A stretch of DNA of 64,000 nt from Variovorax brevis (lineage in GTDB: Bacteria; Pseudomonadota; Gammaproteobacteria; Burkholderiales; Burkholderiaceae_C). Made by a program: the position numbers and the translations under genes. The notes beneath the pieces are model-generated. The model was not told where the DNA came from. It worked only from the letters and a program-made list of their open reading frames with translations, and made no database searches. The DNA lies in contig NZ_JASZYG010000008.1 of the NCBI RefSeq assembly GCF_030317105.1, positions 310,001-374,000 on the forward strand, written 5' to 3'. Position 1 is the stretch's first letter; the number at the start of each line of letters is the position of its first letter. Below, in pieces: positions 9,455-30,920 of this stretch.

Positions 9455-11563
9455 ATGTACAGTGATGGCCTCGCCATGCTCACGATCGAACGACCCACGG
9501 ACCGCCTGCAAAGCGCGCTCGCCACGCTCAACGAAGCGCAGCGCGAAGCCGTTCTCCACGGCATGGATGGCGCAGGTGACGATCAACGTCCGCTGCTGGT
9601 CGTGGCTGGTGCGGGCTCGGGCAAGACCAGTACGCTCGCGCATCGTGTGGCCTGCCTGATCGCCAAGGGCGTCGATCCGCAACGCGTGCTGCTCTTGACC
9701 TTTTCGCGGCGCGCCGCGATGGAAATGGACCGTCGCGCCGGCCAAGTCCTGACGAAGGTGTTGGGGCTGGGTTCGCAGACGCCACCCTCGCTCCCCTGGG
9801 CCGGCACCTTTCACAGCGTGGGCGCGCGCCTGTTGCGCGAATACGCCGCACAAATCGGCCTGGCCGAGAACTTCACGATCCACGACCGGGGCGACGCGGA
9901 AGACCTGATGGGCATGGTGCGCCACGACCTCGGCTTCTCATCGACGGAGCGGCGATTTCCACAGAAGGGAACCTGCCTGTCGGTCTACTCGCGCGTCGTC
10001 AACACGCGCGACGGCCTGCACGACGTGCTCGCCAAGGCCTTTCCCTGGTGCGCCGAATGGGAAGGCGAACTCAAGCGCCTGTTCGGCGCCTACGTGGAAG
10101 CCAAGCAAGAGCAGAACGTGCTCGACTACGACGACCTGCTCCTGTGCTGGTCGGAAATGATGGGCGAGCCTTCACTGGCCGTGCAGGTGGGCGGACGCTT
10201 CGACCATGTGCTGGTCGACGAATACCAGGACACGAATCGCCTGCAGGCCGAAATCCTGCAAAGGCTCAAGCCCGACGGACGCGGCATCACGGCGGTGGGC
10301 GACGACGCGCAGTCCATCTATTCATTCCGTGGCGCGACGGTGCGCAACATCCTGGATTTCCCTGCGCAGTTCGGCGCGCCGGCGCGCATCGTCACGCTGG
10401 AGCGCAACTACCGTTCGACGCAGCCCATTCTGGACGTCTCCAATGCCGTCATTGCCGCCGCCAGCGAACGCCACGCGAAGAGGCTGTGGACCGACAAGCC
10501 TTCTGCGGGCAAGGCCCAACTGGTGCTGGTGCCAGACGAAGCCCAGCAGGCGCGGTGGGTCGCCGACCGCGTGCTGGCGCACCGCGAAGGCGGACTCGCC
10601 CTCAAGTCACAAGCCGTGCTGTTCCGCGCTTCGTCCCACAGCGCGGGGCTGGAGCTGGAACTCGCACGCCGCAACATTCCCTTCGTGAAATTCGGCGGCC
10701 TCAAGTTTCTCGAGGCGTCGCATGTGAAGGACCTGCTCGCCGTCCTGCGATTCGCCCAGAACCCGAAAGGCCGCATGGCAGGGTTCCGGGTCACGCAACT
10801 CATTCCGGGCATCGGCCCGGTGACCGCTGCGCGGCTGCTGGATGCCATGGACGAAGCCGCTGACCCCGGCGCCGCCTTGCAAGGCTTTGCGGTTCCTGGC
10901 GCTGCGAAGGTGCAATGGGCCGAGTTCGCCGCTGTCTACGCCGAGCTTCGAGGCGGTGCAGGCGCGTGGCCCGCGGACGTAGAGCTGGCGATGCGCTGGT
11001 ACCTTCCGCATCTGGAGCGTCTTCATGAAGACGCGTCCGTCCGCCGCGCCGACATCGAGCAGTTGGTGCGCCTTGCCGCAGGCTACGGCTCGCGCGAAAG
11101 CTTCCTCACCGAACTCACCCTCGATCCACCTGAGGCGACGAGCGATCGCGCCGGCCCGCCCTTGCTCGACGAGGACTACCTGATCCTTTCCACCATCCAT
11201 TCGGCCAAAGGCCAGGAATGGACTTCGGTGCATGTCCTCAACGTGGTCGACGGCTGCATCCCGTCCGACATGGCGACCGGCGACCCGGAAGACATCGAAG
11301 AAGAACGCAGGCTTCTCTACGTGGCGATGACGCGGGCGCGTGACCATCTGCACCTGCTGGTGCCGCAGCGCTTCTACGTCACGCAACAGGCCGCGCGAGG
11401 TGACCGCCACCTGTACGCCGGGCGCACGCGCTTCATCACGCAGGCCGATGCCAAGGCCTTTGAAGAAGTGGTTTGGCCTCCGCCGCCAGAACGTCCGGCC
11501 GCCGTCCCGCCGCCGGCTGCCACGATCGACCTTCGCAACCGGTTGCGAGCGGCCTGGCGGTAG
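9455..11563 (+). CDS. UvrD/Rep-type ATP-dependent DNA helicase
   Basis: A superfamily 1A helicase of about 702 residues. Visible motifs in order are I (AGAGSGKT near residue 52), II (VLVDEYQDTN), III (VGDDAQSIYSFRGA), IV (LERNYRST), V (STIHSAKGQEW) and VI (RRLLYVAMTRARDHL). It is shorter than UvrD or Rep from E. coli and lacks an obvious extended C-terminal domain. Such proteins unwind DNA 3' to 5' in repair or replication restart, and this one cannot be assigned to uvrD, rep or pcrA from sequence reading alone. The start is uncertain: 9455 gives the longest product, and the ATG at 9476 is a good alternative. Confidence 0.88.
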   Translation: MYSDGLAMLTIERPTDRLQSALATLNEAQREAVLHGMDGAGDDQRPLLVVAGAGSGKTSTLAHRVACLIAKGVDPQRVLLLTFSRRAAMEMDRRAGQVLTKVLGLGSQTPPSLPWAGTFHSVGARLLREYAAQIGLAENFTIHDRGDAEDLMGMVRHDLGFSSTERRFPQKGTCLSVYSRVVNTRDGLHDVLAKAFPWCAEWEGELKRLFGAYVEAKQEQNVLDYDDLLLCWSEMMGEPSLAVQVGGRFDHVLVDEYQDTNRLQAEILQRLKPDGRGITAVGDDAQSIYSFRGATVRNILDFPAQFGAPARIVTLERNYRSTQPILDVSNAVIAAASERHAKRLWTDKPSAGKAQLVLVPDEAQQARWVADRVLAHREGGLALKSQAVLFRASSHSAGLELELARRNIPFVKFGGLKFLEASHVKDLLAVLRFAQNPKGRMAGFRVTQLIPGIGPVTAARLLDAMDEAADPGAALQGFAVPGAAKVQWAEFAAVYAELRGGAGAWPADVELAMRWYLPHLERLHEDASVRRADIEQLVRLAAGYGSRESFLTELTLDPPEATSDRAGPPLLDEDYLILSTIHSAKGQEWTSVHVLNVVDGCIPSDMATGDPEDIEEERRLLYVAMTRARDHLHLLVPQRFYVTQQAARGDRHLYAGRTRFITQADAKAFEEVVWPPPPERPAAVPPPAATIDLRNRLRAAWR

Positions 11564-11932
11564 CCGTGCGGGCAGGGCGCAGCCGTTTCTGACCCCGCGG
11601 TCCAAGTCGGGGAATGGCGCCGAACTCCCTTCTTGCTGGAGGGTTGGGTAACGGTCTGGCAACCTACATGTCTGAAGGAAAAACGCCGTAACGCAAGGCA
11701 GCGCTTGCAATGCTTGCTATCAAAATAGAAGCGGATTTTCCGCTGAAAGATTCGGTTTCCACCCGGAGTTCCCGGGGATTGCAATTCCACGCCCCGGCGG
11801 GCATAGTGAATCGACTCTCTCTTCCTTCTCCCGCTTTTCTTCCTTCCTTCCTCACCCCCCTTTTTTCCCGTCGGCCCCGCCCGATCCCTTGGGCGAGGTC
11901 ATTTCCCCACCGTCAATCCCAGGAGGTCATTC
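11564..11932 (+). other. Intergenic region with pyrimidine-rich leader before hpf
   Basis: This 369-base gap has no convincing gene. Its second half includes an almost pure pyrimidine stretch on the plus strand (about 11,813-11,872) with repeated CTTCC units, ending about 60 bases before the hpf start. The hpf promoter is presumably in this gap, but I could not fix a clear -35/-10 pair. A possible sigma-54 site near 11,696-11,712 fails on GG-to-GC spacing. Confidence 0.5.
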
Positions 11933-12262
11933 ATGAATTTGACGATCAGCGGTCATCACCTCGACGTCACTCCCGCCCTGCGCAGCTATGTCACTGGCAA
12001 GCTAGACCGGATCACACGGCACTTCGACCAGGTGGTCGATGTGAAGGTCATCCTCACCGTGGAAAAGCAGAAGGAAAAGGAAAAGCGCCAACGAGCCGAA
12101 TGCAACATTCACGTCAAGGGCAATGACATGTTCGCCGAGTCGAGCCATGCTGATCTCTACGCAGCCGTCGATGAACTGGTCGACAAGCTGGATCGCCAGG
12201 TCGTGCGCCACAAGGACCGACTGCAAGACCACCACCACGAAGCCCCCAAGCGGGTCATGTAA
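11933..12262 (+). CDS. hpf: Ribosome hibernation promoting factor (HPF/RaiA family)
   Basis: A 109-residue protein of the sigma-54 modulation/S30EA family. The N-terminus [20 protein letters not shown] is followed by the basic helix [11 protein letters not shown] and the [18 protein letters not shown] segment that contacts the ribosome. It lacks the long C-terminal dimerisation domain, so it is the short gammaproteobacterial-like form. A perfect AGGAGG lies 7 bases before the ATG. It is followed by a terminator and then ptsN, the usual neighbourhood in Burkholderiales, where rpoN often lies upstream; rpoN is not in the adjacent sequence here. Confidence 0.93.
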
Positions 12263-13895: not shown

Positions 13896-14790
13896 GTTGG
13901 GGGTTGCAAGGGGATCCCTTCGACGACGGCGCGCTCGCAAGGCTTGAGCGGCGGAGGCGCATGTCTTCTGCGCACTTGCAGGGGCGATCGCGCCCCGGAA
14001 TCCAGATCGCACGTTTCAGTCTTGTCTCTGACTCTGCAGCATCTGCAGCAGACCGGCGCCAGCAAGCGAGTTTTCAAGGCTGGCGGCGCTGATGCAGCCT
14101 GCGCCATCCATTGACCCTCTCTTCCCCTCTGCTGAAGCGCAAGTGACGTGCGCGCCGCGTGCGCCTTGATCACTGGCAGGGCGTTCGCTCGTGACGATGC
14201 TCGCGATCCCAGCGAACCTCATTCGAACAAGTGCATTCAGGCTTGATCTTGCACTTCCGCGCTGTCCAGGTTGCTCCCAAGACGCTATCTCTTCGCTGAG
14301 CAAGTCCCCCTTGCCTCGGCGCTCTCACCGCGTCCACCCAAACCGCGGCTGCTTCATGAGCCCGCCAGCGCGATGACCACTCGTGCGCGAACTTCAGGCT
14401 TGACGAGCGGGCATCGACTCTAAATCGAGTGTGAACTTTTCCGCGTGATCGTCGAATTTCGTCGCATTGAAGCGCGGAAATTCCATAAATGCAAAAAACG
14501 TCTCAATTCAATTGAGTGACAGAGAATCACTTTCGGAAATTTCCCAGTGGATCAATGGTGTTTTCGAATTTTCCTTTCGTGTCCTGCGTTTTACAGTTCT
14601 TCATCTCCTCAAAGTTTTGGTGTCTGCGTGGGTCCAAGAGGCCTTCGCACACAAGGCAGCGGGGGTTGGTCATTGTTTCTTGCGCAGCTGAATTGCGTAG
14701 CGGTGTTTTGAATCGGATGTTCTGATTTCCAAAATCCTCGCAGAAGAAATATTTGAGTTTTATTTGTTTAAACTAAGTACTGGAATTTCT
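13896..14790 (+). other. Long intergenic region, AT-rich in its second half, upstream of the Ig-like surface protein
   Basis: Nearly 900 bases without a recognisable gene. Short ORFs on both strands show no family features. The first part is GC-rich with a small GGGGCG/CGCCCC hairpin at 13,981-13,996. From about 14,440 the base composition becomes clearly AT-rich compared with the neighbours, and CTCAAT/ATTGAG at 14,502-14,516 forms an inverted repeat. The position suggests a long regulatory leader or a site of H-NS-like silencing for the surface protein; that is inference. Confidence 0.5.
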
Positions 14791-17382
14791 GTGGTCTCGA
14801 AAAAAACGTCGGTTGTGATCAATAACGGCAAGGCCGCCAAGGCCGTTGAGTTGGACGGAAATTCCGTTGTCAAGCTCAAGGCGTCGCCGGGTTTCAAATA
14901 CATCCTCAATTCCGAGGGCGACGTCGCTCCGGAAAATGTGACGATCACCCGCGTGGGCGATGACTTGCAGTTGACGCTGGAAGGCATTGGCGAAGCGCCC
15001 GTCGACGACAACGGCGATTGGACCTTCACCCCCACGACGCCGCTGCCCGAGGGCCCGCACGCCATCACCACGCAGGAGAAGGATCCCGCTGGCAACCCCG
15101 GCCCGGTGAGCCCGCCGCTGGACATCGTCGTGGACACGACCGCACCTGAAGCACCTACCTCCCTGGTGGCAACCGACGACGTCGGCGCCAAGACCGGTCC
15201 GGTGGCCGACGGCGACACGACGGATGACAACAAGCCCACCTTCTCGGGCAAGGGCGAGCCTGGTTCGACCGTCACCGTGTACGACAACGGCGTCAAGCTG
15301 GGCGATGCACCGGTGGACTTGAAGGGCAACTGGAGCCTCACGCCGACCACGCCGCTGGCCGATGGCCCGCACGCCTTCACGACGACGACGAAGGACCCGG
15401 CTGGCAACACCAGCCCGGTGAGCGCGCCGCTGAACGTCGTGATCGACACTGCGGCACCCGCCGCACCCACCACCCTGGTGGCAACCGACGACGTGGGCGC
15501 CAAGACCGGCCAGCTCGCCAATGGCGACGTGACCGACGACAACAAGCCCGCCCTCTCGGGCAAGGCCGAACCGGGTTCGACCGTCACGGTGTACGACAAC
15601 GGCACCAAGCTGGGCACTGCACCGGTGGACGCCAATGGCAACTGGACGCTCACGCCGACCACGCCGCTGGCCGATGGCCCGCACGCCTTCACGGCAACGG
15701 CGACGGATCCGGCTGGCAACACCAGCCCGGCGACCGCGCCGCTGAATGTGACTGTGGACACGGCTGCACCCGTGGCGCCCGCCATCACCAAGGGCATCGA
15801 CAACGAAGGATTCGTCACGGGCAACCTGGCCAATGGCGCGACGACAGACGACACGACGCCAGCGCTCGTCGGCACAGCCGAGCCGGGTAGCACGGTCACC
15901 ATCTATGACGACGGCAAGCCGCTGGGCACTGTGACCGCCGGTCCTGACGGCCAGTGGAGCTATACGCCCACCACGCCGCTCAAGCAGGGCGAGCACGACT
16001 TCACGGTCACGGCCACGGACTCGGTGGGCCACGACAGCCCGGCCTCGGCGCCGTACACGCTGACGGTGGACACCAAGGAAGTTGCCACCATCAAGAGCAT
16101 CAGCACTGACTATGGCGTGAAGGGGGACTTCAACACCCATGACACGTCGCTGACCATCAATGGCGACCTGACCAAGGCCCTGAATGCCGATCAGAAGGTG
16201 CAGATCTCGATCGACGGCGGCAAGACCTGGAGCAATGTCAACGCTGCAGCAGGTGCGACCGAGTGGTCCTATGTGGATCCACGCACGCTCACCGACGGCA
16301 GCTACGAGTACCAGGCGCGTGTCGTTGACACGGCAGGTACCGTCGTTGGCCCGGCGACCAGCCAGGAAGTCATCATTGACACGACGCCGCCGACGACCAC
16401 CATCACCATCGACGCGATCACCAATGACACCGGTACGCCGGGTGATTTCGTGACCGCTGACAAGTCGATCACGATCAGTGGAACGATCAGTGCTCCGCTT
16501 GCTGACGACGAGCGGGTGCAAATCTCCCTCGAAGGCAGCAATACATGGACGGTGGTCGACGTACCGGCCGGTGCGACCACTTGGAGCTATGTGGACACGC
16601 GATCGCTGGAAGTGGGCGAGCACGTCTATGAGGTGCGGGTTGCGAATGTGCGCCCCGGTGTGACCGGCGATCATGACACTCAGGTGGTCACGATCGAAGA
16701 CAGGCCAGCCACCCCCATCGGGCTGGACCTCAACGACGATGGCCAAATCGGCGTCACGGGTGCCACGTCGTCCTCCCAGAAGGATGCCGGTGCAGCGATG
16801 GGCCACACGGTACAGTTCGACATCGACGCCGACGGCCAGAAGGACACCATCGAGTGGTTCGACGGTTCCGGCGACGGCATCCTGATCGACAACCGCGACG
16901 GCCACGCAGCGGAGCACATGGACGGTTCACGCCTGTTCGGTGACCAGGGCGGCAACTACAGCGACGGCTATGCCAAGCTGAGCCTGCTTGACGTCAACGG
17001 CGACGGCCAACTGGCCGGCAGCGAACTGGACGGCATCGAACTGTGGGTCGACAACGGCGATGCGGTGGTCCAGGCAGGCGAAATCCAGACACTGGCACAA
17101 CACGGCGTCGCGGCCATCGGCACGAACGCACACCTCGTCGAAGACGAGCATGGCAAGCAGCATCTGCAATCGACCGCTACTCGCGACGATGGCATGTTGA
17201 TCATGAGCGAAGACGTGTTCTTCCTGCAGGATCACTCGGCGACCGCAAAGCCGGCGCAAGCCGGGCAGCAGGAACCGGTTGCGCCGGTGGCAGTGGATTG
17301 CCCGACGTATGAGGCCCACACCACCGTGAGCAGCACGAGCCAGTTGCTGGTCGACGACAAGGTGCACACCACGATCCTGTAA
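14791..17382 (+). CDS. Ig-like repeat surface protein, probable type I secretion substrate
   Basis: An 863-residue acidic protein. An N-terminal segment of about 65 residues resembles the prefix of BapA-like adhesins. It is followed by tandem bacterial Ig-like modules, about three and a half copies of a 104-residue unit with EPGSTVTVYDNG and the Trp-bearing TPTTPL block. Then come two modules of a second type with QISIDGGKTW-like strands. The last 200 residues have acidic calcium-binding loops, seen as LDLNDDGQIG and DVNGDGQLAGSE. There is no classical signal peptide and no glycine-rich RTX nonapeptide array. The start is uncertain: GTG at 14,791 has GGA 8 bases upstream, and an in-frame TTG at 14,764 is possible. 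Neighbouring type I secretion genes suggest export to the cell surface. Confidence 0.8.
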   Translation: MVSKKTSVVINNGKAAKAVELDGNSVVKLKASPGFKYILNSEGDVAPENVTITRVGDDLQLTLEGIGEAPVDDNGDWTFTPTTPLPEGPHAITTQEKDPAGNPGPVSPPLDIVVDTTAPEAPTSLVATDDVGAKTGPVADGDTTDDNKPTFSGKGEPGSTVTVYDNGVKLGDAPVDLKGNWSLTPTTPLADGPHAFTTTTKDPAGNTSPVSAPLNVVIDTAAPAAPTTLVATDDVGAKTGQLANGDVTDDNKPALSGKAEPGSTVTVYDNGTKLGTAPVDANGNWTLTPTTPLADGPHAFTATATDPAGNTSPATAPLNVTVDTAAPVAPAITKGIDNEGFVTGNLANGATTDDTTPALVGTAEPGSTVTIYDDGKPLGTVTAGPDGQWSYTPTTPLKQGEHDFTVTATDSVGHDSPASAPYTLTVDTKEVATIKSISTDYGVKGDFNTHDTSLTINGDLTKALNADQKVQISIDGGKTWSNVNAAAGATEWSYVDPRTLTDGSYEYQARVVDTAGTVVGPATSQEVIIDTTPPTTTITIDAITNDTGTPGDFVTADKSITISGTISAPLADDERVQISLEGSNTWTVVDVPAGATTWSYVDTRSLEVGEHVYEVRVANVRPGVTGDHDTQVVTIEDRPATPIGLDLNDDGQIGVTGATSSSQKDAGAAMGHTVQFDIDADGQKDTIEWFDGSGDGILIDNRDGHAAEHMDGSRLFGDQGGNYSDGYAKLSLLDVNGDGQLAGSELDGIELWVDNGDAVVQAGEIQTLAQHGVAAIGTNAHLVEDEHGKQHLQSTATRDDGMLIMSEDVFFLQDHSATAKPAQAGQQEPVAPVAVDCPTYEAHTTVSSTSQLLVDDKVHTTIL
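15163..15770 (+). repeat. Near-identical 312-base tandem repeats inside the Ig-like protein gene
   Basis: The stretch CTGGTGGCAACCGACGACGT begins at 15,163 and recurs at 15,475 with a single changed base just after it, a period of 312 bases or 104 codons. The two units remain very similar over most of their length, more so than the flanking half units. Such recent duplication is a typical source of length variation in adhesin genes. Confidence 0.8.
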
Positions 17383-17396
17383 GCGAACCGTCCGGG

Positions 17397-17422
17397 GCGT
17401 GGCAACCGCAGGGTTGCCACGC
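17397..17422 (+). terminator. Strong hairpin after the Ig-like protein gene
   Basis: A perfect 11-bp inverted repeat GCGTGGCAACC/GGTTGCCACGC with a 4-base loop lies 15 bases after the stop codon. It lacks a T tract, so it may act as a weak terminator or an mRNA-stabilising structure rather than a full stop between this gene and the OmpA-family gene. Confidence 0.6.
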
Positions 17423-17497
17423 GCCTGGATCTGCTTTCCAACACCCACCACATCCCCAATATTCAAGCGATGCCCCTTGGGCATCCGGAGCTTCACC

Positions 17498-18463
17498 ATG
17501 AAATCGACAAGTCTTGTTTCCAATGGCCAGCGCGCGTCAAAGCGCCACGGCATCATTGCTTCCATCCTGACGGCACTGTGCCTGACGGCTCCCGCTGCAT
17601 TCGCGGCAACGCCAGGGCAAGTCCTTCGCGAAGGACCGGTCTACAGCCCGGTTCCCGGGATCGCTTCCAGCCAGGCGCAAATCATCATCTTCAGAAAAGC
17701 GGCAGCCGCGACGATGCCGGCCGCTGCAGCAGCAGAGCCGGCGCACGTCTACATCAACAGCCACTTCCATACCGCGCTGCTGCCCAACGGCTACACGCGC
17801 TTTTGCCTGAACCAGGGCATCTACACGATCCAGGCCCCCATCGGCGATGCGCCCGTGTATGCGAGCAAGGCCAACCCGGATCCCAAGCGTCTGGTGAGCC
17901 TGGAAGGCGGCAAGACCTACTTCGCCGCCGTGTCCGAAGATGGCAAGGGCGAAGCCGTGCTGGTCGACCGCGCTGACGCGGAACGCCTGCTGGCAAGCGC
18001 GCGCGAGCCGCACCACGTCATCAGCCGCGTGCCTGAGCGCGTGGCGTGCAACGAAGTGGCCGCGCCGGCGCAACCCGCCAAGTTCACGCTGAATGGCGAC
18101 GTGCTGTTTGAATTCGACCGCGGCGACTACGGCTCCATCACGTCGGCCGGGCGCACCGAACTGCAGAAGGTCGTGGGCTTCATCAACGAGCAGTCTGCTG
18201 GCGCGGCCACCCGTGTGGGTGTGCGCGGTCACGCCGATCCGATGGGTGGCGCTGCGCACAACCAGAAGCTGTCCGAGCAACGCGCGCAGTCGATTGCCCG
18301 CGTGCTGAAGGAGCAAGGCATTGCAAGCGATCGCATCCATGCAGACGGCGTCGGCAGCACCATGCCGGTGGTCAACTGCCCCAAGGGCGCCAAGGCCGAG
18401 AAGATCGCCTGCAATGCGCCGAACCGACGTGTCGAGGTGACGGTGGAGGGGATGAAGAAGTAA
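17498..18463 (+). CDS. OmpA-family outer membrane protein
   Basis: A 321-residue envelope protein with a signal peptide of about 35 residues (cleavage near AFA-ATP). The middle part (about 40-170) resembles small lipoprotein-like domains seen with DUF2846 (HFHTALLPNGYTRFCL), without firm assignment. The C-terminal 125 residues are a peptidoglycan-binding OmpA domain with DVLFEFDRGDYGSI, VGVRGHADPMG, LSEQRAQSIARVL and the closing NRRVEVTVEG. The start at 17,498 has CCGGAG 7 bases upstream. It follows the Ig-like protein gene by 115 bases, so it may anchor the secretion apparatus or the adhesin to peptidoglycan; that role is inference. Confidence 0.88.
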   Translation: MKSTSLVSNGQRASKRHGIIASILTALCLTAPAAFAATPGQVLREGPVYSPVPGIASSQAQIIIFRKAAAATMPAAAAAEPAHVYINSHFHTALLPNGYTRFCLNQGIYTIQAPIGDAPVYASKANPDPKRLVSLEGGKTYFAAVSEDGKGEAVLVDRADAERLLASAREPHHVISRVPERVACNEVAAPAQPAKFTLNGDVLFEFDRGDYGSITSAGRTELQKVVGFINEQSAGAATRVGVRGHADPMGGAAHNQKLSEQRAQSIARVLKEQGIASDRIHADGVGSTMPVVNCPKGAKAEKIACNAPNRRVEVTVEGMKK

Positions 18464-21759: not shown

Positions 21760-24363
21760 TTACTTGGGACCCAGGATTCCGGAGGCCATCGCCCTGAGGT
21801 CAAAAGCCTTCCCGGGTGCGGGCTCCGCCGGTAGCGAGGGCAGCAGCATGGCCGAGTCGGCGCGGATGCGAAGGTCGGCCGCCTGTGCGTCAAAGCGGTT
21901 GTTCACCTGGGCAATCTGGTTGTTGTAGTGGTCATTCTCGGCAATGAGCACGTCCAGCAAAGTGCGCTTGCCAAGGTGGTACCACTGCTCGAAGAAGATG
22001 CCTCGCACACGATCCGTCTCCTTGATCAGCGACGTGTACTCCGACGCCCGGCTCGCTGCTGCATCGCGCTGTTCGGCCGCAGTGCGCAAGCGGTACTCCA
22101 GGTCGCGTGACGCAGCATTCGCCTTCTCTTCACCGGCGTTGGCGCGCTCGTAGGCCGCCCGCTGTGCCGCCACGCTCGAGCCGCCCTGGAACACATTCCA
22201 TTGCAGCGCCAGGTTGGTCGACCATGGCTGGCGGTTTCCGTAGCCATCGGTCTGCGTTGTCTTGGAGACAACCCAGTTCACCTGCGGCAAGCGCGAGGCC
22301 TTCACGGCGTCCGCATACAGGCCGGCGGATTTCGCTTCGGCGCGTGCTTGCCGCACGGCGGGGTGCTCCGTAGCCGAAGAAAGAGCCATCTGCAAATCGG
22401 TGACGCCCGTGCCCCACTTCATGTTGGCGGGCAGTTGCACCTCTTCGCCGACGAGCTTGGCCAGGGTGACCTGCGTTTCCCGCATTTTTGCAGCGATCTG
22501 GTCGCGACTTGCAATCGCCTGCAGGCGCCGTGCACGGGCCTGCGTCAACTCGCTCGCGCGGCCGCGGTCGCTCTCGGTGATCTGGCTCAGCATCGTGACC
22601 AATTGGTCCATGCGCTTCACGTAGGCCTGGCTCAGTTCCAGTTCCTTTCGATAGCGCCGCAGCTCGATCAATGCGGCGGTGGTTTCGTAGGCAACACCCT
22701 GGCGCACTTGCTCCAGGCCCTCCCGCACGGCTTTGGATTTCTCCGTTTGGCTGGCGATGGTGCTCGACAGCCGGCCCCAGTCGAACACTGGCGTCGTCAC
22801 GCTGATGTTGGCGCCGGCGCTGGTGGGTGAATTGGCGGATCCACTTCCGAAATTCGCCGTCGGCGACGCCACGCCCACCTGGACCTGCGGCCAACGCTGC
22901 CCTTTGGTCTGGTTGATGTCTTCCGCCGAAGCCTGCCAGTTGGCGCGGGCTTCACGGATCGCAGGGCTTGTGGCCAGTGCCTTCTGCACCAACTCCTCGA
23001 CGAAGCGCGAGCTTTCGGAGCCGTCCGACGGCGTGGAGCCGCCTTCCGGGCCTTCCCTGGCTGCAGCAACAGTCGTATCACCAGGCGAAGGCGCTTCCGC
23101 GTCGACGCCCGGGGCCGCCCAAGCGCTTTCGCGTGCACTCACGCTGGTGCGCTGCTGAGCGTCCGCGGTCTGGACGGTGCTGGGGGCCGTCCGGGCGTCT
23201 TTGCCTGACGCCACACTTGTGAGCCGGGTTTCAATCGCCTGGGCCGTGCTGGGGGCTGCCTGGGCGATCTTGCCTGCGTCGATGGTGGTGGGCTTGGCTT
23301 TGATGGCCTGGGTCGTGCTGGGGGCCGACCAAGCTTTCTCGCCTTCGTCCTTGTCATTGCGCCAGGTTTCAATCGCCTGGGCCGTGCTGGGGGCTGCCTG
23401 GGCGATCTTGCTTGCATCAATGGCGGTGGGCTTGGCTTTGGCGGCCTGGGTCGTGCTGGGGGCTGACCAGGTTTTCTCGGCTTCGTCCATGTCATTGCGC
23501 CTGGCTTCGATCGCTTGGGCTGTGCTGGGGGCTGCCGGGGCGATCTTGCTTGCATCAATGGCGATGGGCTTGGCTTTTACGGCTTGGGTCGGGCTGGGGG
23601 CCGACCAAGCTTTCTCGGCTTCGTCCATGTCATTGCGCCTGGTTTCAATCGCCTGGGCCGTGCTGGGGCCTGCCTGGGCGAATTTGCCTGCGTCGATGGT
23701 GATGGGCTTGGCTTTGACGGCCTGAGTCGTGCTGGGCGCCGACCAGGTTTTTTCGGCTTCGTCCATGTCATTGCGCTGCCTGGTTTCAATCGCCTGGGCC
23801 GTGCTGGGGGCTGCTTGGGCGATCTTGCCTGCGTCGATGGGGGTGGGCTTGGCTTTGATGGCCTGGGTCGTGCTGGGGGCCGACCACGCCTTCTCGCCTT
23901 CGTCCATGTAGTTGACGCTGGTTTCGATCGCTTGGGCCGTGCTGGGGGCTACTTGCGCGATCTTGGCTGCATCAATGGCTGCGGACTGGCGTTCGAGGGC
24001 CTGAACGGTCCTGGGGGCTGCCGGTGCGGTCTCGTCTTCGTCCGCGCCGGCGAATTCGGCTTCAAACGCCTGGGTGGCTGCGTTGGCCGCTTCTGCGGTC
24101 GTCAACTCTGCTTCGAGCATGGGCACGCCGTCGGCTACCGCACGTCCATGCAGTACGCCGAGGATTCCCAATACCCGCTTGCCGTTGTCATCCATGGGAA
24201 TCAAATCGGCGGCCATGCCGAACGCATCCTGCGATGCGTTGCGCTTGGGGGCTTGCTGCGCCAAGGCGCCAACGCTCGTGAAAGCCATGAGCGCCATGCT
24301 GGCCCCGACGACGAATCGGCGCATGGCGCTCGATCGTCGTTTGATCGTCTGATCTTGTTTCAT
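21760..24363 (-). CDS. TolC-family outer membrane protein with a long N-terminal repeat domain
   Basis: An 867-residue protein, about twice the length of TolC. Residues 1-36 form a signal peptide (cleavage near ALA-QQ). Residues 37-130 are acidic and low-complexity. Residues 130-406 are six tandem units of about 46 residues, each with APSTAQAIE and SAPSTTQAxKAKP cores and an acidic DMDEAEK linker. The TolC domain begins near 450 and runs to the end, with the two-fold pattern expected for an outer membrane channel (VQKALATSPAIREARANW, ISVTTPVFDWGRL, later LALQWNVFQGGSS). It is downstream of the membrane fusion protein gene by 2 bases. It should be the outer membrane channel of a type I secretion system. 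I know no function for the repeat domain. Confidence 0.88.
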   Translation of the reverse strand: MKQDQTIKRRSSAMRRFVVGASMALMAFTSVGALAQQAPKRNASQDAFGMAADLIPMDDNGKRVLGILGVLHGRAVADGVPMLEAELTTAEAANAATQAFEAEFAGADEDETAPAAPRTVQALERQSAAIDAAKIAQVAPSTAQAIETSVNYMDEGEKAWSAPSTTQAIKAKPTPIDAGKIAQAAPSTAQAIETRQRNDMDEAEKTWSAPSTTQAVKAKPITIDAGKFAQAGPSTAQAIETRRNDMDEAEKAWSAPSPTQAVKAKPIAIDASKIAPAAPSTAQAIEARRNDMDEAEKTWSAPSTTQAAKAKPTAIDASKIAQAAPSTAQAIETWRNDKDEGEKAWSAPSTTQAIKAKPTTIDAGKIAQAAPSTAQAIETRLTSVASGKDARTAPSTVQTADAQQRTSVSARESAWAAPGVDAEAPSPGDTTVAAAREGPEGGSTPSDGSESSRFVEELVQKALATSPAIREARANWQASAEDINQTKGQRWPQVQVGVASPTANFGSGSANSPTSAGANISVTTPVFDWGRLSSTIASQTEKSKAVREGLEQVRQGVAYETTAALIELRRYRKELELSQAYVKRMDQLVTMLSQITESDRGRASELTQARARRLQAIASRDQIAAKMRETQVTLAKLVGEEVQLPANMKWGTGVTDLQMALSSATEHPAVRQARAEAKSAGLYADAVKASRLPQVNWVVSKTTQTDGYGNRQPWSTNLALQWNVFQGGSSVAAQRAAYERANAGEEKANAASRDLEYRLRTAAEQRDAAASRASEYTSLIKETDRVRGIFFEQWYHLGKRTLLDVLIAENDHYNNQIAQVNNRFDAQAADLRIRADSAMLLPSLPAEPAPGKAFDLRAMASGILGPK
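23146..23976 (-). repeat. Six tandem 138-base repeats in the TolC-type gene
   Basis: Units start at codons 130, 176, 223, 269, 315 and 361 of the gene, each 46 or 47 codons long. Units 2 to 5 are nearly identical, and the first and last are more diverged, the usual pattern of a minisatellite growing from its middle. Each unit contains two half units built on the same APST-x-QA core, which suggests an older 23-residue ancestor. A change in copy number would stay in frame. Confidence 0.9.
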
Positions 24364-24365
24364 TC

Positions 24366-25751
24366 TTATCTCTCCCGGAACGCTTCGCGCGCCTTCATCA
24401 CGGGCTTGAGCAGGTAGCTCAGGACCGTTTTTTCGCCCGTGCGCACTTCGACCGTCGCGGTCATGCCGGGCATGATGGGGAACTCCTTGCCGCCGGCGCT
24501 CAGCGATGCCTTGTCGGTGCGCACCAACAGGCGGTAGTAGGAGCTGTCGCCCTTGCCTTGGCGCGACTTGTCCTCGTCCTTCAGCGTGTCCGGGCTCAGA
24601 TGCTCCACCGTGCCATGCAGGCCGCCATAGATGGAGTAGTCGTACGCCGAGATCTTGACGGTCGCAGGCAATTGCGGCCGAACGAAGGCAACGTCCGACG
24701 GGCGGATCTTTGCCTCGACCAGGAGCTGGCCTTCGAGCGGCACGATTTCCATGATGTCGGCGCCTTGCTGGATCACGCCGCCAATCGTGGTCACGCGGAT
24801 GTTCTTCACGGTGCCCCTGACAGGCGCCTTGATGGTCGTGCGCTTCATGATGTCTTCGCGCGCGCCGACGTTTTCCTTGGACTGGGCCAGTTCGCTTTCA
24901 AGGCGGGTCAGCTCGGCGTTGGCGTCTGCACGGAACTTGTTCTGGCGCTCCGCGATTTGCAGGCGGAACTCGTTGGCCTGTCGCTTCATGCGCAGGATTT
25001 CCACTTCCGACATCAGGCCGCGCTGCGACAGGGGCTCCGACAGCGAGATCTCGCGCTCGGCCAGTTGCAGGCTGCGTTGCAGCGCCTGCACGCTCTCTTG
25101 CAGCGTCTGGCGACGTGCGTTGAAAGCCTGCGTCTCGTCACGCACGATCGAAGGCACCGCCAGGACTTCCGGCGGGAAGGTCAGCGGCTGTTGATAGGCC
25201 TCTGCGCGCAGGCGGACCACCGAGGCCTTGAGCCCCAGCACCTTGGACAAGCCTTCGCGATAAGACGCACCGGCGCGCGTCGGGTCGATCTCGAGCAGCA
25301 CTTGCCCCCGCTCGACGATGTCGCCCTCGCGGACGTTCATCGACGCCAGGATGCCGCCCTCCAGGCTCTGGATGACTTGCTCGCGGCTCGCCGGAATGAT
25401 GCGGGCTTCGCCTTGGGTGATTTCTTCCACCTTGGCGAAATGCGCCCATCCCAGCCCCACCGTCACGATGCCCGCAATCAGGTACAGCACCAGCATGCTG
25501 CCGGGCGTCTTTTGAACCAGCATGGCTTCGCGAAGGTCCTGCATGAAGGCGAGATCTTCCGTGCGTGCCTGGCCATTGGACGCTCCCCTGCGGCTCAGTT
25601 CTTTCTTGCTGAAAGGCGCGGTGCCCGCTTCAAGCTTCGGCTCGTTTGCCGCGCTGTTGTTGGTGTGGTCTTCACCGAGGGACGACTCCGTCTGCGAGTT
25701 CGCGGAGGGCGCCGTGGTGGCGTTGACGTCGTTCTTTGACTTGCGGCTCAT
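24366..25751 (-). CDS. HlyD/LapC-type membrane fusion protein of a type I secretion system
   Basis: A 461-residue inner-membrane adaptor. A hydrophilic N-terminal tail of about 85 residues precedes one transmembrane helix (VLYLIAGIVTVGLGWAHF). A biotinyl/lipoyl-like half domain follows (VIQSLEGGILASMNVREGDIV), then a long periplasmic coiled coil. The returning half motif IKAPVRGTVKNI is next, and the C-terminal HlyD signature near VMKAREAF ends the protein. This is the family that links a type I ABC ATPase to a TolC channel. The start overlaps the stop of a 68-residue leader ORF (ATGA at 25,748-25,751), and the stop is 2 bases from the TolC-type gene, so the three are one translation unit. 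Confidence 0.92.
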   Translation of the reverse strand: MSRKSKNDVNATTAPSANSQTESSLGEDHTNNSAANEPKLEAGTAPFSKKELSRRGASNGQARTEDLAFMQDLREAMLVQKTPGSMLVLYLIAGIVTVGLGWAHFAKVEEITQGEARIIPASREQVIQSLEGGILASMNVREGDIVERGQVLLEIDPTRAGASYREGLSKVLGLKASVVRLRAEAYQQPLTFPPEVLAVPSIVRDETQAFNARRQTLQESVQALQRSLQLAEREISLSEPLSQRGLMSEVEILRMKRQANEFRLQIAERQNKFRADANAELTRLESELAQSKENVGAREDIMKRTTIKAPVRGTVKNIRVTTIGGVIQQGADIMEIVPLEGQLLVEAKIRPSDVAFVRPQLPATVKISAYDYSIYGGLHGTVEHLSPDTLKDEDKSRQGKGDSSYYRLLVRTDKASLSAGGKEFPIMPGMTATVEVRTGEKTVLSYLLKPVMKAREAFRER

Positions 25752-25954
25752 GCGGATACCCCGTTGGCTTCGCTCGCGCCCCAGGCAACAAGCGAAACTT
25801 GCGCGGCATTCACGCCATGGCACCCGGCTGCGCCGAGCACGCCATGACGAGCACACAACCGGCGAACTGCCCCCATCAAGGTGTCCTGCCTGTCATGCGC
25901 TACGGGCGCATGCATTGACTGCACGCCCCGACCTTTAACCATTTCTGCCGCCAT
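25748..25954 (-). CDS. 68-residue leader ORF derived from the N-terminus of the type I secretion ABC ATPase
   Basis: The first 38 residues match the first 38 of the ABC ATPase encoded at 30,704, with 26 identities by eye (MAAxMVxGRG, QDTL, GAVR, LCA). After about residue 40 the match is lost and the ORF ends by overlapping the fusion-protein start. The ribosome-binding site AGGAGTTTTTATG is identical to that of the ABC gene. It could be a translated truncation that now serves only to couple translation of the downstream gene, or a pseudogene fragment. I see no codon evidence that the peptide itself is needed. Confidence 0.6.
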   Translation of the reverse strand: MAAEMVKGRGVQSMHAPVAHDRQDTLMGAVRRLCARHGVLGAAGCHGVNAAQVSLVAWGASEANGVSA

Positions 25955-26170
25955 AAAAACTCCTGTTGACGCTTGCGCGAACCATCCGATGTGCGAAACA
26001 AAGGTTGTGCGCTCCCCAGCAGCAGCAACATTCATTTCCAGAATGTCAATTGGAAACTTTCAGGCGACATCCGAATGCAGGCGGAGTACTGCGCGGGGCT
26101 CGGAAATTTCTGAGTTGGGGTGCATTCCGGTCCGAGTTGGCGGGTGGTGGGAAATGGGCGTGAAATATTG
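25830..26170 (-). repeat. Duplicated promoter and 5' end, copy A (upstream of the fusion-protein gene)
   Basis: About 340 bases here align by eye with 30,580-30,920 in the same orientation. They cover the upstream region, the ribosome-binding site and the first codons of the ABC gene. Conserved stretches include CCATAAAAACTCCTGTTG, GAATGCAGGCGGAGTA, CGGAAATTT and CCGGTCCGAGT. The copies differ by many substitutions and small gaps, so the duplication is not recent. Confidence 0.85.
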
Positions 26171-26976
26171 CGCGGTTCGCGGGTCGGCCCGTGCCCGGAT
26201 TCGATGCGGGGCACCACGCTCGGCTTTTGTCGATTTGGGGGGCGCTTGCCGCAGGCAATAGGGCGTGCTTGGTGAGGATTGATCCATGGCCAGCAGCGAA
26301 GTTGTGAGGGGCAAAAGCCTTGAATCTGTCTTTTTCAGTCGCCAGGATGCACCCAGCGTCGCTCAAATCGACTCATGAATTTTGTCGCTTTCAAATCAGA
26401 CGACAGGAACACTGATCGCCTCGAATCGTGAAAATATTCGCCATTGGTGTTGCATGTTTTATCGTCATCTGTGCGATTTTGCTATTTCCTCTTTTGACAT
26501 GACGCGCAAATTTTTGGGCGCATTCCGGAATTTGGCGAATTGGACGAGTCGATTAATTGATGATTTTTCAATTTGCGTTCTGCGACTTACAAGTGAAGGT
26601 GCGGCTTTGTCGATTCCATAAAAGGGAAAAGTTATTTGCATGAAGCATTGAGTACGCCGCCTGATAAATTCCAGCGCCTTGCTCTTTCGCGAGATTCGAG
26701 AAAGCAGCAGTGGCGGCTCGTTCCGGCCGGTGCGTGCGTGGCCGGCTGAGGAGTGCCAGCCGTTGGAGCGATTCGAGACGCGTCGTGGCAGCGGATGCGG
26801 GCCCACTTCACCCTTGTCTGGCGGGCGCCGCGATCCTCCGCTTGCGTTGGCGCTGGTGGCGACGATGGGCTGTGGCGGCGAGAGCTTTGTCGAGCGTCTC
26901 CGACGCTCCGACGAAGACGCAACGCCGCTCCGGTCTTCGCGAGGCCTTCGATTGATTTGGCCGCATCCCCGGGCTT

Positions 26977-27240
26977 GTGTTCTTCGACCGCGCCAGGGCG
27001 GTCGTGATCGGAGTGAGTACCTCGTCGGCAGTGCGCGGGCCGAAGCGGGTAGTCATCGACGAATTCGGCGACCTGTGTTCAGCAGAGAAAGCAGGCCTGT
27101 TCTTCAAGGTGCCCAAGCGCCACGAGCGCGGCTCAGTGGTGCCCAGTTGGCATTCACGCAGTGGGCGAGCGCTTCCGATTGAATGGAAACTCGGGCGAGG
27201 CGGCGGATCCGCAAAGAGGGCCACGTCGGTGACTTAACCG
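26977..27240 (+). pseudogene. IS21-family istB fragment, frameshifted
   Basis: The translation from about 27,049 reads VVIDEFGDL, then a FFKVPKRHERGS stretch, matching the Walker B and following region of IstB (IIDELGYL ... FFQV..RYERGS). After about 27,140 the reading frame shifts and LAFTQWASA follows, matching the conserved PFTQWA motif. No Walker A part or istA gene was found, so only the C-terminal third survives. A GTGCAAAGTCCAC stretch at about 27,383 resembles an IS21 end, which is inference. Confidence 0.6.
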
Positions 27241-27427
27241 GCGCCGCCCTGCTCGCCTGCTCGGGGCTCGTCCTTCGCGCCAGCCGAGCGTCAAAGTTGA
27301 AGCAGTCGCGCCAAAGACCGAGGCGTTTGGGTGCGCAGGGCGCACGCGGTCGCGTCAGGCGGATTTCTTAATGTGACGGCTGGCGTGCAAAGTCCACGAT
27401 GCTGGGTCGTGTCGTGCCCCGCGCCAG

Positions 27428-27829
27428 TTACACACCTCTTGATGTACTGGGCCGCTTCATGGCGATTGTGGAAGCAGCAATCGAGCGACTGGAAGAACTC
27501 CTCAGCGCCATCTCGGCCAGCCCTCAACACCCATGTGATCCTCCGATTCGTGCTCATGACATGCCGCATGAGAGCACTGCCGATGCCTTTGCGCTGGAAG
27601 GTAGCGCTACCGCCACAATGGAAGGGTAGCCGATGCAAAGCCCGTCAGTGAACGCCCTCGCAAATCCGATGACTTCCTCGGCGGACGCGACCGCGACAGC
27701 GGCACGCTGGCTCGCAGCGACGAGCAACTCGAATTCATCGCGCGTGCCGCGCCTGTGTTGCCAACCCGTGTCACGCAAGAGGTCGTAGACGGCCTCCAGG
27801 TCGGCGGCGTTCAAGTCGCGAATTTGCAT
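27428..27829 (-). pseudogene. GNAT-family N-acetyltransferase pseudogene with two frameshifts
   Basis: The start MQIRDLNAADLEAVYDLL and GFARAFTDGLCIGYPSIVAV read in one frame. Near 27,605 the frame changes and the acetyl-CoA motif FQRKGIGSALMRHVM follows with the GAEEFFQSL block. Near 27,485 the frame returns to the first one and ends with IAMKRP and a TAA at 27,428. The total of 402 bases equals a normal 133-residue GNAT protein, so the two indels roughly compensate. A single base loss at GCGC(T)ACC would restore the expected VAPTFQRKG reading. Confidence 0.75.
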
Positions 27830-28400
27830 GTGCATGGCATGAGGCGAAGACGGCAGCGGCCAAGACAGCCGCCAGCGAGTCGTCGCGATTTGATCGGCGG
27901 TGAGTCTGCATGGTCTTCGCGGAGTGGGCTTGAACGGATTGACACCATCCGACCGAGCCACGGCGCCTGATTCAAGGTCAAGGCGAATCCGCGCAATCCC
28001 GCGTCGCGAGACGATCACACGGACACGGCAATCGCTCGGTGACCAGGGTCGAACGGCCGGTGTGATCAGCGCTGAACTCTGGCGCCGCGGCCGCACTGTG
28101 TTCCCGGCCAATGCGCGGGATATCAGGAACGCCTCGGGGCAAGAGACGATGTGCGGCACTGCCGGTGGGATCACTGTCGCAAAGGTGCTGAGCGGCAAAA
28201 CCCAAGCGCTACGCCAACCGCGCCGCGCAAGCCCTGTGTCTGTCAGCCGCCGCGCGGCACTCCAGCCATTTGGCATCGGGCGCGGACTTCAGGCCCCTGT
28301 GTCTCACGTCAAAACAGGGGCAAGGCTCCCACCGCCCCTAGCCGCAAACTCGCCCCGGCGACCTATGCGCTGCTCACCAGAGGCACGGCAAACAAAAAAA

Positions 28401-28438
28401 AGCCAGGCCGCTGCGGTTCAAAACGCAGCGGCCTGGCT
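28401..28438 (-). terminator. Strong Rho-independent terminator after the type I secretion ABC gene
   Basis: A perfect 15-bp stem AGCCAGGCCGCTGCG/CGCAGCGGCCTGGCT with an 8-base loop is followed, on the minus strand, by seven T residues. It lies about 60 bases after the ABC stop and should isolate that gene from the downstream fusion-protein gene. Confidence 0.92.
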
Positions 28439-28452
28439 CGTCGGAAAAGTCG

Positions 28453-28478
28453 ATGCGCACCGGCCAACCGGTGCGCAT
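28453..28478 (-). terminator. Second hairpin between the ABC stop and its terminator
   Basis: A perfect 11-bp inverted repeat ATGCGCACCGG/CCGGTGCGCAT with a CCAA loop lies 18 bases after the ABC stop. It has no T tract and probably adds to termination or protects the mRNA 3' end. Confidence 0.6.
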
Positions 28479-28496
28479 TCAGTGTGCTCTGTCAGC

Positions 28497-30704
28497 TCAT
28501 GCAGTAGCCCCGGCCACGCTCGCCGGGCTCGTGCCGCGAAGGCTCGCCAGCACAGCATCCTTGGGCCCGTTTGCCGTCACCTTGCCTTCGGTGTCCATCA
28601 CGATGATGCGGTCCACCAAGTTGAGCACCGACAGCCGGTGCGTCGCCACGATGAGCGTCTGGCCACGCGTGGCGACCGCCATCTTCTCGAGGAAGAAGCG
28701 TTCGGTCTGCAGGTCCATCGAGCTGGTCGGTTCGTCCATCAGCAGGACGCGCGGGCGAAGCAGCAGGCAGCGTGCGAGCGCGACGAGCTGGCGCTGGCCG
28801 CCCGACAGGCCCTGGCCCGCCTCGCCGATCGGCATGTCGTAGCCGCGCGGATGTCGCGCCGCAATGGCGTCGATGCCCGTCAGCTTGGCGATGTAGAGGA
28901 ACTGCTCCGTCGTGGTGGCCGGATTGCCGATGATGACGTTGTCCTTGAGCGTGCCGTGAAAGAGGCGTGCATCCTGCGACAGCAGGCCGACGGCCGCGCG
29001 CACGTCCGCCGGATCGATCTGTACGACGTCGATGCCATCCATCAGCACCTGCCCGCTGGTTGGCTGGTACATCGACGCCATGATGCGCAGCAGCGTCGAT
29101 TTGCCGCAGCCGATGTTGCCCAGCAGCGCAACGCGCTCGCCCGGCTTGAAATCCAGGTTGATGTCCTGCAGCACCGTGGGCGCCGGCTGCATCGGAGGCG
29201 CCGGGTACGAAAATCCGATCTTCTTCAGCGTGACCGCGCCGCGGAATTCGGGCTTCGCAAGGTAGCGCCGATCCGGCGACCGTTCCTGCGGCTGCGCCAT
29301 GATCTGGCCCAGCGAACGCATGGCGGTCTTGGCCTGCTGGAAGCGGATGGCCAGACCGACCACAGCCGCCAGCGGCGAGGTCGCACGGCCGGCGAGCATC
29401 ACCACGCCGAACAGCGCGCCCTGGGTCAGTTCGCCGGCATGGATCAGGTAGACGCCCCAGACGACAAGGATCACCGTCTGCAACTGCTGGATCAAGGTGA
29501 CCAGGTTCACCGTCAGGCTCGACAGCGCACGGGACTTCATCGAGCTCGTTGCGGACAGCGCGCTGAAGCTTTCCCACTTCTGCTGCATGACGCCTTCACC
29601 CCGCGCCGCCTTGAGCGACTCGAGTCCTTCGATCGCTTCGATCAGCAGGCCTTGCTTGAGCGAGCTTTCGCGCAGGTTTTCCTGCATCACGCGCGCCAGC
29701 GGCCACTGGATGGCGACGCTCAGCACGATGATGATCGGAATCGCCAGCAAGGGCACCAGGGCCAGCGGTCCGCCGATGAGAAAGATGATGCCGACGAAGA
29801 GCAGCACGAAGGGCAGGTCGGAGAGCGTCGCAATCGTGGCCGAGGTCACGAAGTCGCGCACCGACTCGAACTCGCGCAGCTGGTTGGCGGACGAGCCAGC
29901 CGATTTCGACTTGAACTCCATGCGCGTCGACAGCACCTTGCGAAACAGCATGGCGCCGAGAATCAGGTCGGCCTTCTTGCCGGCCACGTCGACCAGGTGC
30001 GAGCGCACGTGGCGCGCGACGGTTTCGAACACCATCGCGACGACGACGCCGATGGCCAGCGACCACAGCGTGGCATAGGCCTGGTTCGGCACCACGCGGT
30101 CATACACGTTCATCGTGAAGAAGGTGCTGGCAAGCGTCAGGACGTTGATCAGCAGCGCTGCCAGTGCCGCGCTGGCGTAGTAGCGGCGATAGCGCCACAG
30201 CGTGGAAAACAGCCAGTGGCCTTCGGTGTGCTCGAGCGTCGATCCGGCGCGGTCGTCCAGCCGCGCGCGTGGCTTGGCCAGCAGCGCATGCCCCGCGTAC
30301 AACTCGTTCATCTCCTCGACGCCGAGCGTCGAGCTGCCGTCGCCGGCGTCCGGGAAGACGACCTCGTAGGTCGCGGAGTCGCCACTGCCGTGGCGCGCAG
30401 TGAGGATGCACGCACCGCCGTCCTTGCGCATCACGGCGATGGGAAAGAGGTGGGACAGCAGGCCGCCGATGTCGCGCTTGACCCATCCCGCGCCGATGCC
30501 GGCCTGCTCCATGATGCGCAAGGCCAGCGTGGGCGAGAGTCGCCCGCCACGTGGCAGCCCGGCGCGCAAGGCGGCTTCGCTGAGTGCAACGCCATGATGC
30601 GCACACAACCAGCGCACCGCCCCCAGCAAGGTGTCCTGCTCGTCGTAGACAACGGGTGCCTGCACTACCTGTGCGCCCCGACCTTCAACCATCACTGCCG
30701 CCAT
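28497..30704 (-). CDS. Type I secretion ABC transporter/permease with N-terminal C39-like domain (LapB/HlyB-like)
   Basis: A 735-residue fused ABC exporter. Residues about 15-145 are a C39-peptidase-like domain, probably non-proteolytic since no clear Cys-His catalytic pair is visible. Transmembrane helices start near 175 (YASAALAALLINVLTLAST) and run to about 445. The ATPase domain has Walker A GNIGCGKST, signature LSGGQRQ and Walker B VLLMDEPTSSMD. Start 30,704 is preceded by AGGAG and five T residues; the longer ORF start has no site. It matches the ATPase of adhesin-exporting type I systems and should pair with the fusion protein and TolC-type protein encoded 2.7 kb further along the minus strand. 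The likely substrate is the Ig-like protein at 14.8 kb, by inference. Confidence 0.92.
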   Translation of the reverse strand: MAAVMVEGRGAQVVQAPVVYDEQDTLLGAVRWLCAHHGVALSEAALRAGLPRGGRLSPTLALRIMEQAGIGAGWVKRDIGGLLSHLFPIAVMRKDGGACILTARHGSGDSATYEVVFPDAGDGSSTLGVEEMNELYAGHALLAKPRARLDDRAGSTLEHTEGHWLFSTLWRYRRYYASAALAALLINVLTLASTFFTMNVYDRVVPNQAYATLWSLAIGVVVAMVFETVARHVRSHLVDVAGKKADLILGAMLFRKVLSTRMEFKSKSAGSSANQLREFESVRDFVTSATIATLSDLPFVLLFVGIIFLIGGPLALVPLLAIPIIIVLSVAIQWPLARVMQENLRESSLKQGLLIEAIEGLESLKAARGEGVMQQKWESFSALSATSSMKSRALSSLTVNLVTLIQQLQTVILVVWGVYLIHAGELTQGALFGVVMLAGRATSPLAAVVGLAIRFQQAKTAMRSLGQIMAQPQERSPDRRYLAKPEFRGAVTLKKIGFSYPAPPMQPAPTVLQDINLDFKPGERVALLGNIGCGKSTLLRIMASMYQPTSGQVLMDGIDVVQIDPADVRAAVGLLSQDARLFHGTLKDNVIIGNPATTTEQFLYIAKLTGIDAIAARHPRGYDMPIGEAGQGLSGGQRQLVALARCLLLRPRVLLMDEPTSSMDLQTERFFLEKMAVATRGQTLIVATHRLSVLNLVDRIIVMDTEGKVTANGPKDAVLASLRGTSPASVAGATA

Positions 30705-30920
30705 AAAAACTCCTGTTGCTGCCGCTCTCGCGAACCGATCCCATGCGTAAAACAACGGTTGCGCGTTCTCCAGCAGCAACGTTTGTTTCTCAACCGTTAA
30801 TTGGACGCTTCAGGCCCTTGGATGAATGCAGGCGGAGTAGTGCGTGCCCTTCGGAAATTTCCGAGTTCGGGTGCGACCCGGTCCGAGTAGGCGGGTCGTT
30901 GGCGAAGAATGTGAATTAGT
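30580..30920 (-). repeat. Duplicated promoter and 5' end, copy B (native ABC gene)
   Basis: This is the partner of copy A at 25,830-26,170. It contains the start and the first codons of the intact ABC gene plus about 215 bases upstream. Because the duplicated part stops shortly after the coding start, the two genes probably share or once shared the same promoter. Confidence 0.85.

Follow-up and report, generated by a model that had tools for sequence, protein, structure and literature searches.

A lineage-specific repeat array in the variable N-terminal extension of a clade of TolC channels in type I secretion

A TolC-family protein and its gene neighbourhood

The gene considered here encodes a TolC-family protein of 867 amino acids and lies at positions 21760–24363, on the minus strand, of a 64,000-nucleotide stretch of Variovorax brevis DNA (contig NZ_JASZYG010000008.1, positions 310001–374000). 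We refer to this whole stretch, which is part of an 8.59-Mb draft genome of 83 contigs, as the window. The reading frame is intact over all 867 residues and comprises a probable signal peptide, an N-terminal extension holding a repeat array and a TolC channel domain. The extension between signal peptide and channel measures about 420 residues, 300 of which are repeat. This array is real and in frame, with a copy number as given by the draft assembly. It is also less exotic than on first reading, being a lineage-specific repeat inside an extension that varies across a whole clade of TolC channels.

Residues 1–35 (24259–24363; the minus strand applies to all parts of this protein) form the probable signal peptide, recognized by eye (...SVGALA-QQ). 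They are followed by the N-terminal, repeat-free portion of the extension (residues 36–115; 24019–24258), by the tandem array (residues 116–415; 23119–24018), which consists of 13 half-units of two alternating flavours with the last one degenerate, and by the linker from array to channel (residues 416–454; 23002–23118). Trp 415, within the sequence ESAW, stands just before this linker and aligns with a Trp of the orthologue L003. The TolC/OEP channel domain occupies residues 455–867 (21763–23001), of which residues 456–835 match TolC by Pfam, by a sequence search of the PDB and by the fold of the predicted model. The Pfam profile PF02321 (OEP) aligned with two stretches (E 2.6e-38; 132.1 bits against a cut-off of 22). 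The repeat lies, as the earlier note on this DNA had stated, between the (probable) signal peptide and the TolC domain, and the periplasm, to which that note assigned it, is where the extension would be expected.

The best subfamily match was to the type I secretion TolC model TIGR01844, but the score of 149.7 bits falls under the cut-off of 225.15, and the protein is therefore filed only as TolC family. The model for the lipidated OprM/NodT type (TIGR01845) gave 52.6 bits against a cut-off of 210.05; the protein contains no Cys at all and thus has no lipobox. By context it is the channel of a type I secretion system (T1SS), with an HlyD adaptor and a T1SS ABC permease encoded nearby. The HlyD-family adaptor gene is located at 24366–25856 on the minus strand (TIGR01843; 341.9 bits, cut-off 208.65), although a later ATG may be its true start, and an LssB-type permease/ATPase is encoded on the same strand at 28497–30779 (TIGR03375; 853.5 bits, cut-off 693.1). 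About 2.6 kb (25857–28496) separate these two genes, which in some relatives (L041 and L042, for instance) form a closely spaced pair. Two open reading frames tested in this interval had no Pfam match and, by eye, resemble fragments of an acetyltransferase that lie in two frames.

The probable secreted substrate, an adhesin with Ca2+-stabilised Ig-like repeats (NF033510 above cut-off), is encoded at 14764–17382 on the plus strand, and an OmpA-family gene adjoins it at 17399–18463 (plus strand). The start of the adhesin showed a weak match to the BapA prefix, below the cut-off (E 0.0023), and a 312-bp tandem array of 2.5–3 copies is found within its Ig-like repeats (15004–15931). The adhesin and OmpA genes (14764–18463) are on the strand opposite to the T1SS genes (21760–30779), with fur, bamE, dapB, exbB and exbD between them; in L041, matches to adhesin, OmpA, LssB, HlyD and TolC stand in one row on one strand. 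Elsewhere in the window, a 77-bp unit occurs in two copies at 62547–62692, with 95% matches.

The 23-residue repeat and the predicted structure of the extension

Tandem Repeats Finder reported two periods in the array: 138 bp at 23223–23979 (5.5 copies, 87% matches, score 1114) and 69 bp at 23170–24043 (12.6 copies, 63% matches). At the protein level there are 13 cores matching [AG]P[SR][TP]xQ, the first beginning at residue 116 and the last at residue 393, spaced by 23 residues and once by 24. The core is preceded by IDAxKIAQA in one flavour of half-unit and by MDEAEKxWS in the other. The two alternate, a pair making up a unit of 46 residues, so that 13 half-units of 23 residues amount to about six such units. 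The earlier note had described six 46-residue units at 23146–23976. The array and its place are confirmed, and with them about six pairs, but the smallest unit has 23 residues and the true span, 23119–24018, is slightly wider. Counted in phase from residue 116, units 2–5 share 80–85% identity in protein and 86–90% in DNA, and the first and last units are more diverged; to call units 2–5 nearly identical was an overstatement. The acidic linker said to join the cores is clear in five of the six units, the last having lost it. In DNA, all the 46-residue units differ from one another.

Two observations fit what is expected of a translated array. The rate of nonsynonymous substitution (dN) was below the synonymous rate (dS) in 16 of 20 same-phase half-unit comparisons, which overlap and are not independent, and the GC content of the array peaks at the third codon position. 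The four exceptions are two pairs with a dS of zero and two pairs involving the half-unit that bears the extra residue. The array is balanced in charge (36 Lys and Arg against 35 Asp and Glu) and contains six Trp, at residues 160, 207, 253, 299, 334 and 345, of which five occupy an equivalent position in the unit; a further Trp is the last residue of the array, 415. Other frames are also open across the array, at 23177–23725 on the plus strand (182 residues) and at 23139–23558 on the minus strand (139 residues), probably as a side effect of a GC-rich repeat.

The repeat belongs to no family in the libraries searched, in agreement with the earlier note: hidden Markov model (HMM) searches of Pfam and NCBIfam gave no match above cut-off, the best Pfam score against the extension being 17 bits (GRA6, cut-off 27), and NCBIfam returned nothing at E 0.01. 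Among 101 genomes of the genus, the sole good match to the array was the window's own gene, and two genomes gave weak matches with stop codons (E 0.004–0.005). The array had no match in the plasmid and phage collections, and its spread on phages or plasmids was rejected on that ground. The 23-residue repeat was likewise seen in none of the orthologues examined.

AlphaFold2 modelled residues 37–450 alone with a mean predicted local distance difference test (pLDDT) score of 40.3, and 365 of the 414 residues scored below 50. A helix at about residues 57–76 (pLDDT around 70) appeared in this model and not in that of the full-length protein, which was built on a three-row alignment and in which residues 64–448 were below 50. 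In the full-length model, ten-residue means in the main channel helices were mostly 70–92, with lower values in predicted strand regions, and Foldseek recovered the TolC part as TolC (best E 4.3e-11). These predictions suggest that the extension is probably disordered. A folded domain or an extension of the channel has been set aside for now, no confident model having been obtained, and the earlier proposal that the repeat extends the channel is unsupported, since neither residues 37–450 nor the full protein gave a fold there.

Extensions in orthologous channels

When searched with the channel domain, 6 of 101 genomes of the genus, the window's own included, contained relatives (E up to 1e-80), as did 3 of the 399 genomes of an order sample, again including the window's own (1e-80); in samples of the family (399 genomes) and the class (369 genomes), the window's own was the sole one (both 1e-70). 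The family, order and class searches scored just 4–5 candidates in each genome, so that some relatives may have been overlooked. Four of 255 genomes in the family of G501 and nine of 259 in that of G611 also held relatives (both 1e-80). A further one was found on a Pantoea plasmid and another, L021, on a contig filed as viral (IMGVR_UViG_3300048927_000501), where a TolC of the clade carries a 187-residue extension in what is probably bacterial DNA. Twenty orthologues were measurable after removal of duplicates and one truncated row: L008 was dropped as identical to L003, L020, L031, L033 and L034 were replaced by the longer L045, L046, L048 and L049, and L030 is not among them because its frame passes the boundary of the locus while still in the extension. 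The ends of the signal peptides were placed by eye.

The 20 extensions measure 11, 57, 61, 64, 77, 122, 128, 141, 187, 196, 248, 260, 268, 268, 293, 322, 420 (window), 474, 478 and 512 residues. Nineteen thus have 57–512 residues, and 15 have at least 100. As controls, eight TolC proteins from outside the clade were picked by hand, not at random, from 30 plasmid hits; they have 3–106 residues ahead of the channel with the signal peptide, or 0–78 without some 28 residues of it, and none has an extension as long as 100 residues. Long extensions are therefore typical of the window's TolC clade, which overlaps the controls at the short end. To speak of a grafted domain, as the earlier note did, was too strong: since 19 of 20 orthologues have an extension of at least 57 residues at this very place, the array represents one of several fillings of a linker that varies across the clade, and not a foreign domain.

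The fillings differ between lineages. Tandem Repeats Finder detected arrays in the extension DNA of four of the 20 orthologues, with periods of 69 and 138 bp in the window, 18 bp in L045 and L046 and 9 bp in L039, the main periods all being multiples of three bases. The 18-bp arrays encode AKQAE[ML] hexamers, counted by protein as 21 in a row in L045 and 29 in L046, at the same place in two related genomes, and the array of L039 consists of QQA triplets (22.8 copies of 9 bp). The earlier note had thought the copy number of the window's array probably variable; the hexamers show such variation for an array of another kind. L048 and L049 carry long charged stretches rich in Ala, Glu and Arg, with no tandem array in the DNA. 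The remaining 14 have neither array nor charged stretch, and many are Pro/Ala-rich. Among these are the window's nearest relatives, L006, L003 and L007, with 65–68% identity in the channel and 77–141 Pro/Ala-rich residues without an array; the extension of L006 has 77 residues and that of L003 has 141, against 420 in the window. In L045 (G501; also L020), the TolC gene (about 9347–11960, minus strand) has a frame broken in the channel domain into two overlapping frames; it lies in a single-contig genome and may be a pseudogene or contain a sequencing error.

A tree of 19 orthologues and the eight controls, from which L045 was left out because its frame breaks inside the channel, placed the orthologues in one group apart from the controls (support 100/99), with long branches flagged between the two sets. 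The window grouped with L006, L003 and L007 (100/100), L039 with L019, L037, L038 and L040 (100/100), and L048 and L049 with L035 (99/96). The seven labels given to the fillings need six changes on this tree, the minimum possible; the label 'PA_rich' was given to the rows with neither array nor charged stretch, 13 in all once L032 is excepted, and fits only some of them by name, their Pro content being 6–26%. Three fillings (the array of 23-residue units, the run of QQA and the charged stretch) each lie within a well-supported group that also contains rows without them, and so either arose separately or were lost repeatedly.

Tryptophan recurs near the ends of the extensions. A Trp lies 22–28 residues before the channel in 12 of the 20 orthologues and 40–44 residues before it in three more (the window, L003 and L007), the motif [FY][SA]xWL is present in 11, and a Trp occurs at extension residues 9–16 in 11. 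Leaving the window aside, 14 extensions reach 100 residues or more. Their end zones, defined as the first 30 and last 50 residues, contain 25 Trp among 1120 positions, against 4 among the 2777 positions of the middle. Derivation of the array from a duplicated EKLW segment, found before the channel in L003 and L007, looked attractive by eye but was dropped: 43 of 500 and 161 of 500 shuffles reached the local alignment scores, and the L003 alignment falls on another segment.

We compared 13 loci (12 fetched stretches and that of Pantoea); where a gene seems absent, the fetched stretch may have ended too early or tblastn may have missed it. An HlyD match lies near TolC in all 13, although in L043 it covers only the last 197 residues, and LssB was found in 12. 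Upstream of TolC, at 7315–7905 in L003 and 7357–7947 in L043, these last 197 HlyD residues (query 300–496) were detected and no LssB was found; judging from these remnants, the operon in Variovorax sp. J2P1-59 looks truncated. Matches to the window's Ig-like adhesin occur in 8 of the 13 loci and an OmpA relative in 5.

A possible periplasmic tether

The usual picture of a TolC-type channel is that of a compact tube to which, at most, a short lipidated tail is added. Bap-type adhesin T1SSs, such as those of L026 (beside bapA on a Salmonella plasmid) and L025 (Acinetobacter), use channels of the same family as the window's, and in L022, L025, L026, L027 and L029 an adhesin gene precedes TolC and a T1SS permease/ATPase gene follows it. 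Some of them have a short extension before the channel (34, 60 and 78 residues in L026, L027 and L025). None of the eight controls reaches 100 residues, and they fall outside the clade of the window protein. TolA domain II is a long periplasmic stretch rich in Ala, Lys and Glu, and TolA ties envelope parts together and sets their spacing in its own system. It is like the fillings of L045, L046, L048 and L049, in composition only, and the window's APST-type units are unlike it.

Lipidated outer membrane factors of the OprM/CusC type resemble the window protein in having an N-terminal segment ahead of a TolC-like core, but the window protein has no Cys and its extension is repetitive and 420 residues long. 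In the OprN chain, counted from its first residue, the matching profile position comes after 42 residues. That the Trp-Leu motif stands in for the acyl anchor of CusC/OprM is no more than a possibility, since the distances do not agree cleanly, these 42 residues comparing with 23–27 between motif and channel. The CusC tail has about 20 residues (PMC3017539). According to PMC13082787, YbjP, a lipoprotein partner of Escherichia coli TolC, has a linker that runs along TolC between the equatorial domain and the outer membrane; it differs from the window's arm in being a separate protein with a globular domain. Within the titles, abstract openings and passages of the open-licence papers listed, there was no account of a long or repetitive TolC extension: the portions covered of PMC8277102 (literature on HgdD and Bap systems) make no mention of an 'N-terminal extension', and those of PMC4647330 contain nothing on such TolC extensions.

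We infer, with a probability of roughly 0.55, that the extension is a periplasmic arm that acts as a tether or spacer tolerant of length and that it was expanded separately in several lineages. The array would then be a lineage-specific expansion in a long, low-complexity extension of a clade of T1SS TolC channels, several of which lie beside Ig-like (Bap-type) adhesins. After removal of the signal peptide, a trimeric channel would carry three arms, one per protomer, and by analogy each would branch off at the beginning of the first TolC helix, in the periplasm and level with the equator of the channel. What relatives appear to keep is the presence of the arm and, in most, short Trp motifs near one or both ends; its sequence and length would be free, and unrelated tandem repeats may have enlarged it in three lineages. 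With Trp at the same place in five units, the window's array could be a multivalent version.

Several observations weigh against this interpretation. Low AlphaFold2 confidence obtained with one sequence or three rows is weak evidence of disorder, and the charge-hydropathy rule classes only 2 of the 20 extensions (L048 and L049) as disordered, the window's not among them. Arrays are the exception, 16 of the 20 orthologues having none, and the hexamer rows have no resolved place in the tree. Trp is at neither end place in five orthologues (L006, L036, L021, L004 and L032), the window lacks the N-terminal Trp, and the Fisher p of 1.6e-10 for the clustering of Trp overstates the case, the motif having been noticed before it was counted and the orthologues being related. 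Four orthologues with 57–77 residues overlap the longest controls (60 and 78). Finally, L032 (locus L047) has an extension of 11 residues with HlyD and LssB alongside; since both are present there, the system apparently manages without a long arm in that lineage.

The main alternative is neutral expansion, in which GC-rich repeats in an unconstrained segment change by slippage or unequal recombination, any soluble in-frame sequence being tolerated, harmlessly and without function. This is plausible, though distinctly less probable than a tether. The span of 11–512 residues, the differing fillings with no array in 16 of 20, the 77 residues of the window's nearest relative and the near absence of an extension beside the HlyD and LssB matches of L032 all speak for it. 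It accounts less well for extensions of at least 100 residues in 15 of 20 orthologues against none of the eight hand-picked controls, for the clustering of Trp at the ends and for the excess of dS over dN in 16 of the 20 non-independent comparisons. In a stronger form of the tether reading, selection might act on reach and not on sequence: three long periplasmic arms would dock by their Trp motifs near the channel and far from it, tying the channel to another envelope layer or part of the machine and setting the spacing, with spacers recruited from unrelated material and the window's array as a multivalent form. This stronger version is doubtful, and the presence of arrays in just 4 of 20 extensions makes it slightly less likely still.

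The regular alternation of two half-units, their regularly placed Trp and the OmpA-family gene beside the window's adhesin could also indicate a specific domain that binds peptidoglycan or the neighbouring OmpA-family protein, six copies giving avidity. We consider this unlikely: no peptidoglycan-binding or other family matched in the libraries tried, no examined orthologue shares the repeat, and the earlier suggestion of an OmpA partner is weakened by finding an OmpA relative in only 5 of the 13 loci, against an extension of at least 57 residues in 12. More improbable still is a role in retention or gating of the adhesin, in which the extension might enter the channel, for example, or hold the N-terminal region of the adhesin. 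The genetic link agrees with this idea, the loci containing T1SS genes and 8 of 13 matching the window's Ig-like adhesin. A draft genome in 83 contigs might raise the suspicion of an assembly or sequencing artefact, which the earlier note had named as grounds for refutation. This can be all but dismissed: the units all differ in DNA, the frame is intact, the array lies inside a long contig, and two single-contig genomes, G501 and G1378, have arrays of another kind at the corresponding place.

The more interesting part is the pattern at the level of the clade, different fillings between Trp-bearing ends. Arms up to the length of the channel chain itself, differing in sequence between lineages, form a natural series of length variants. 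With such a series one may ask what keeps the channel in place in the envelope, in what way it makes contact with peptidoglycan and how large adhesins are retained at the cell surface.

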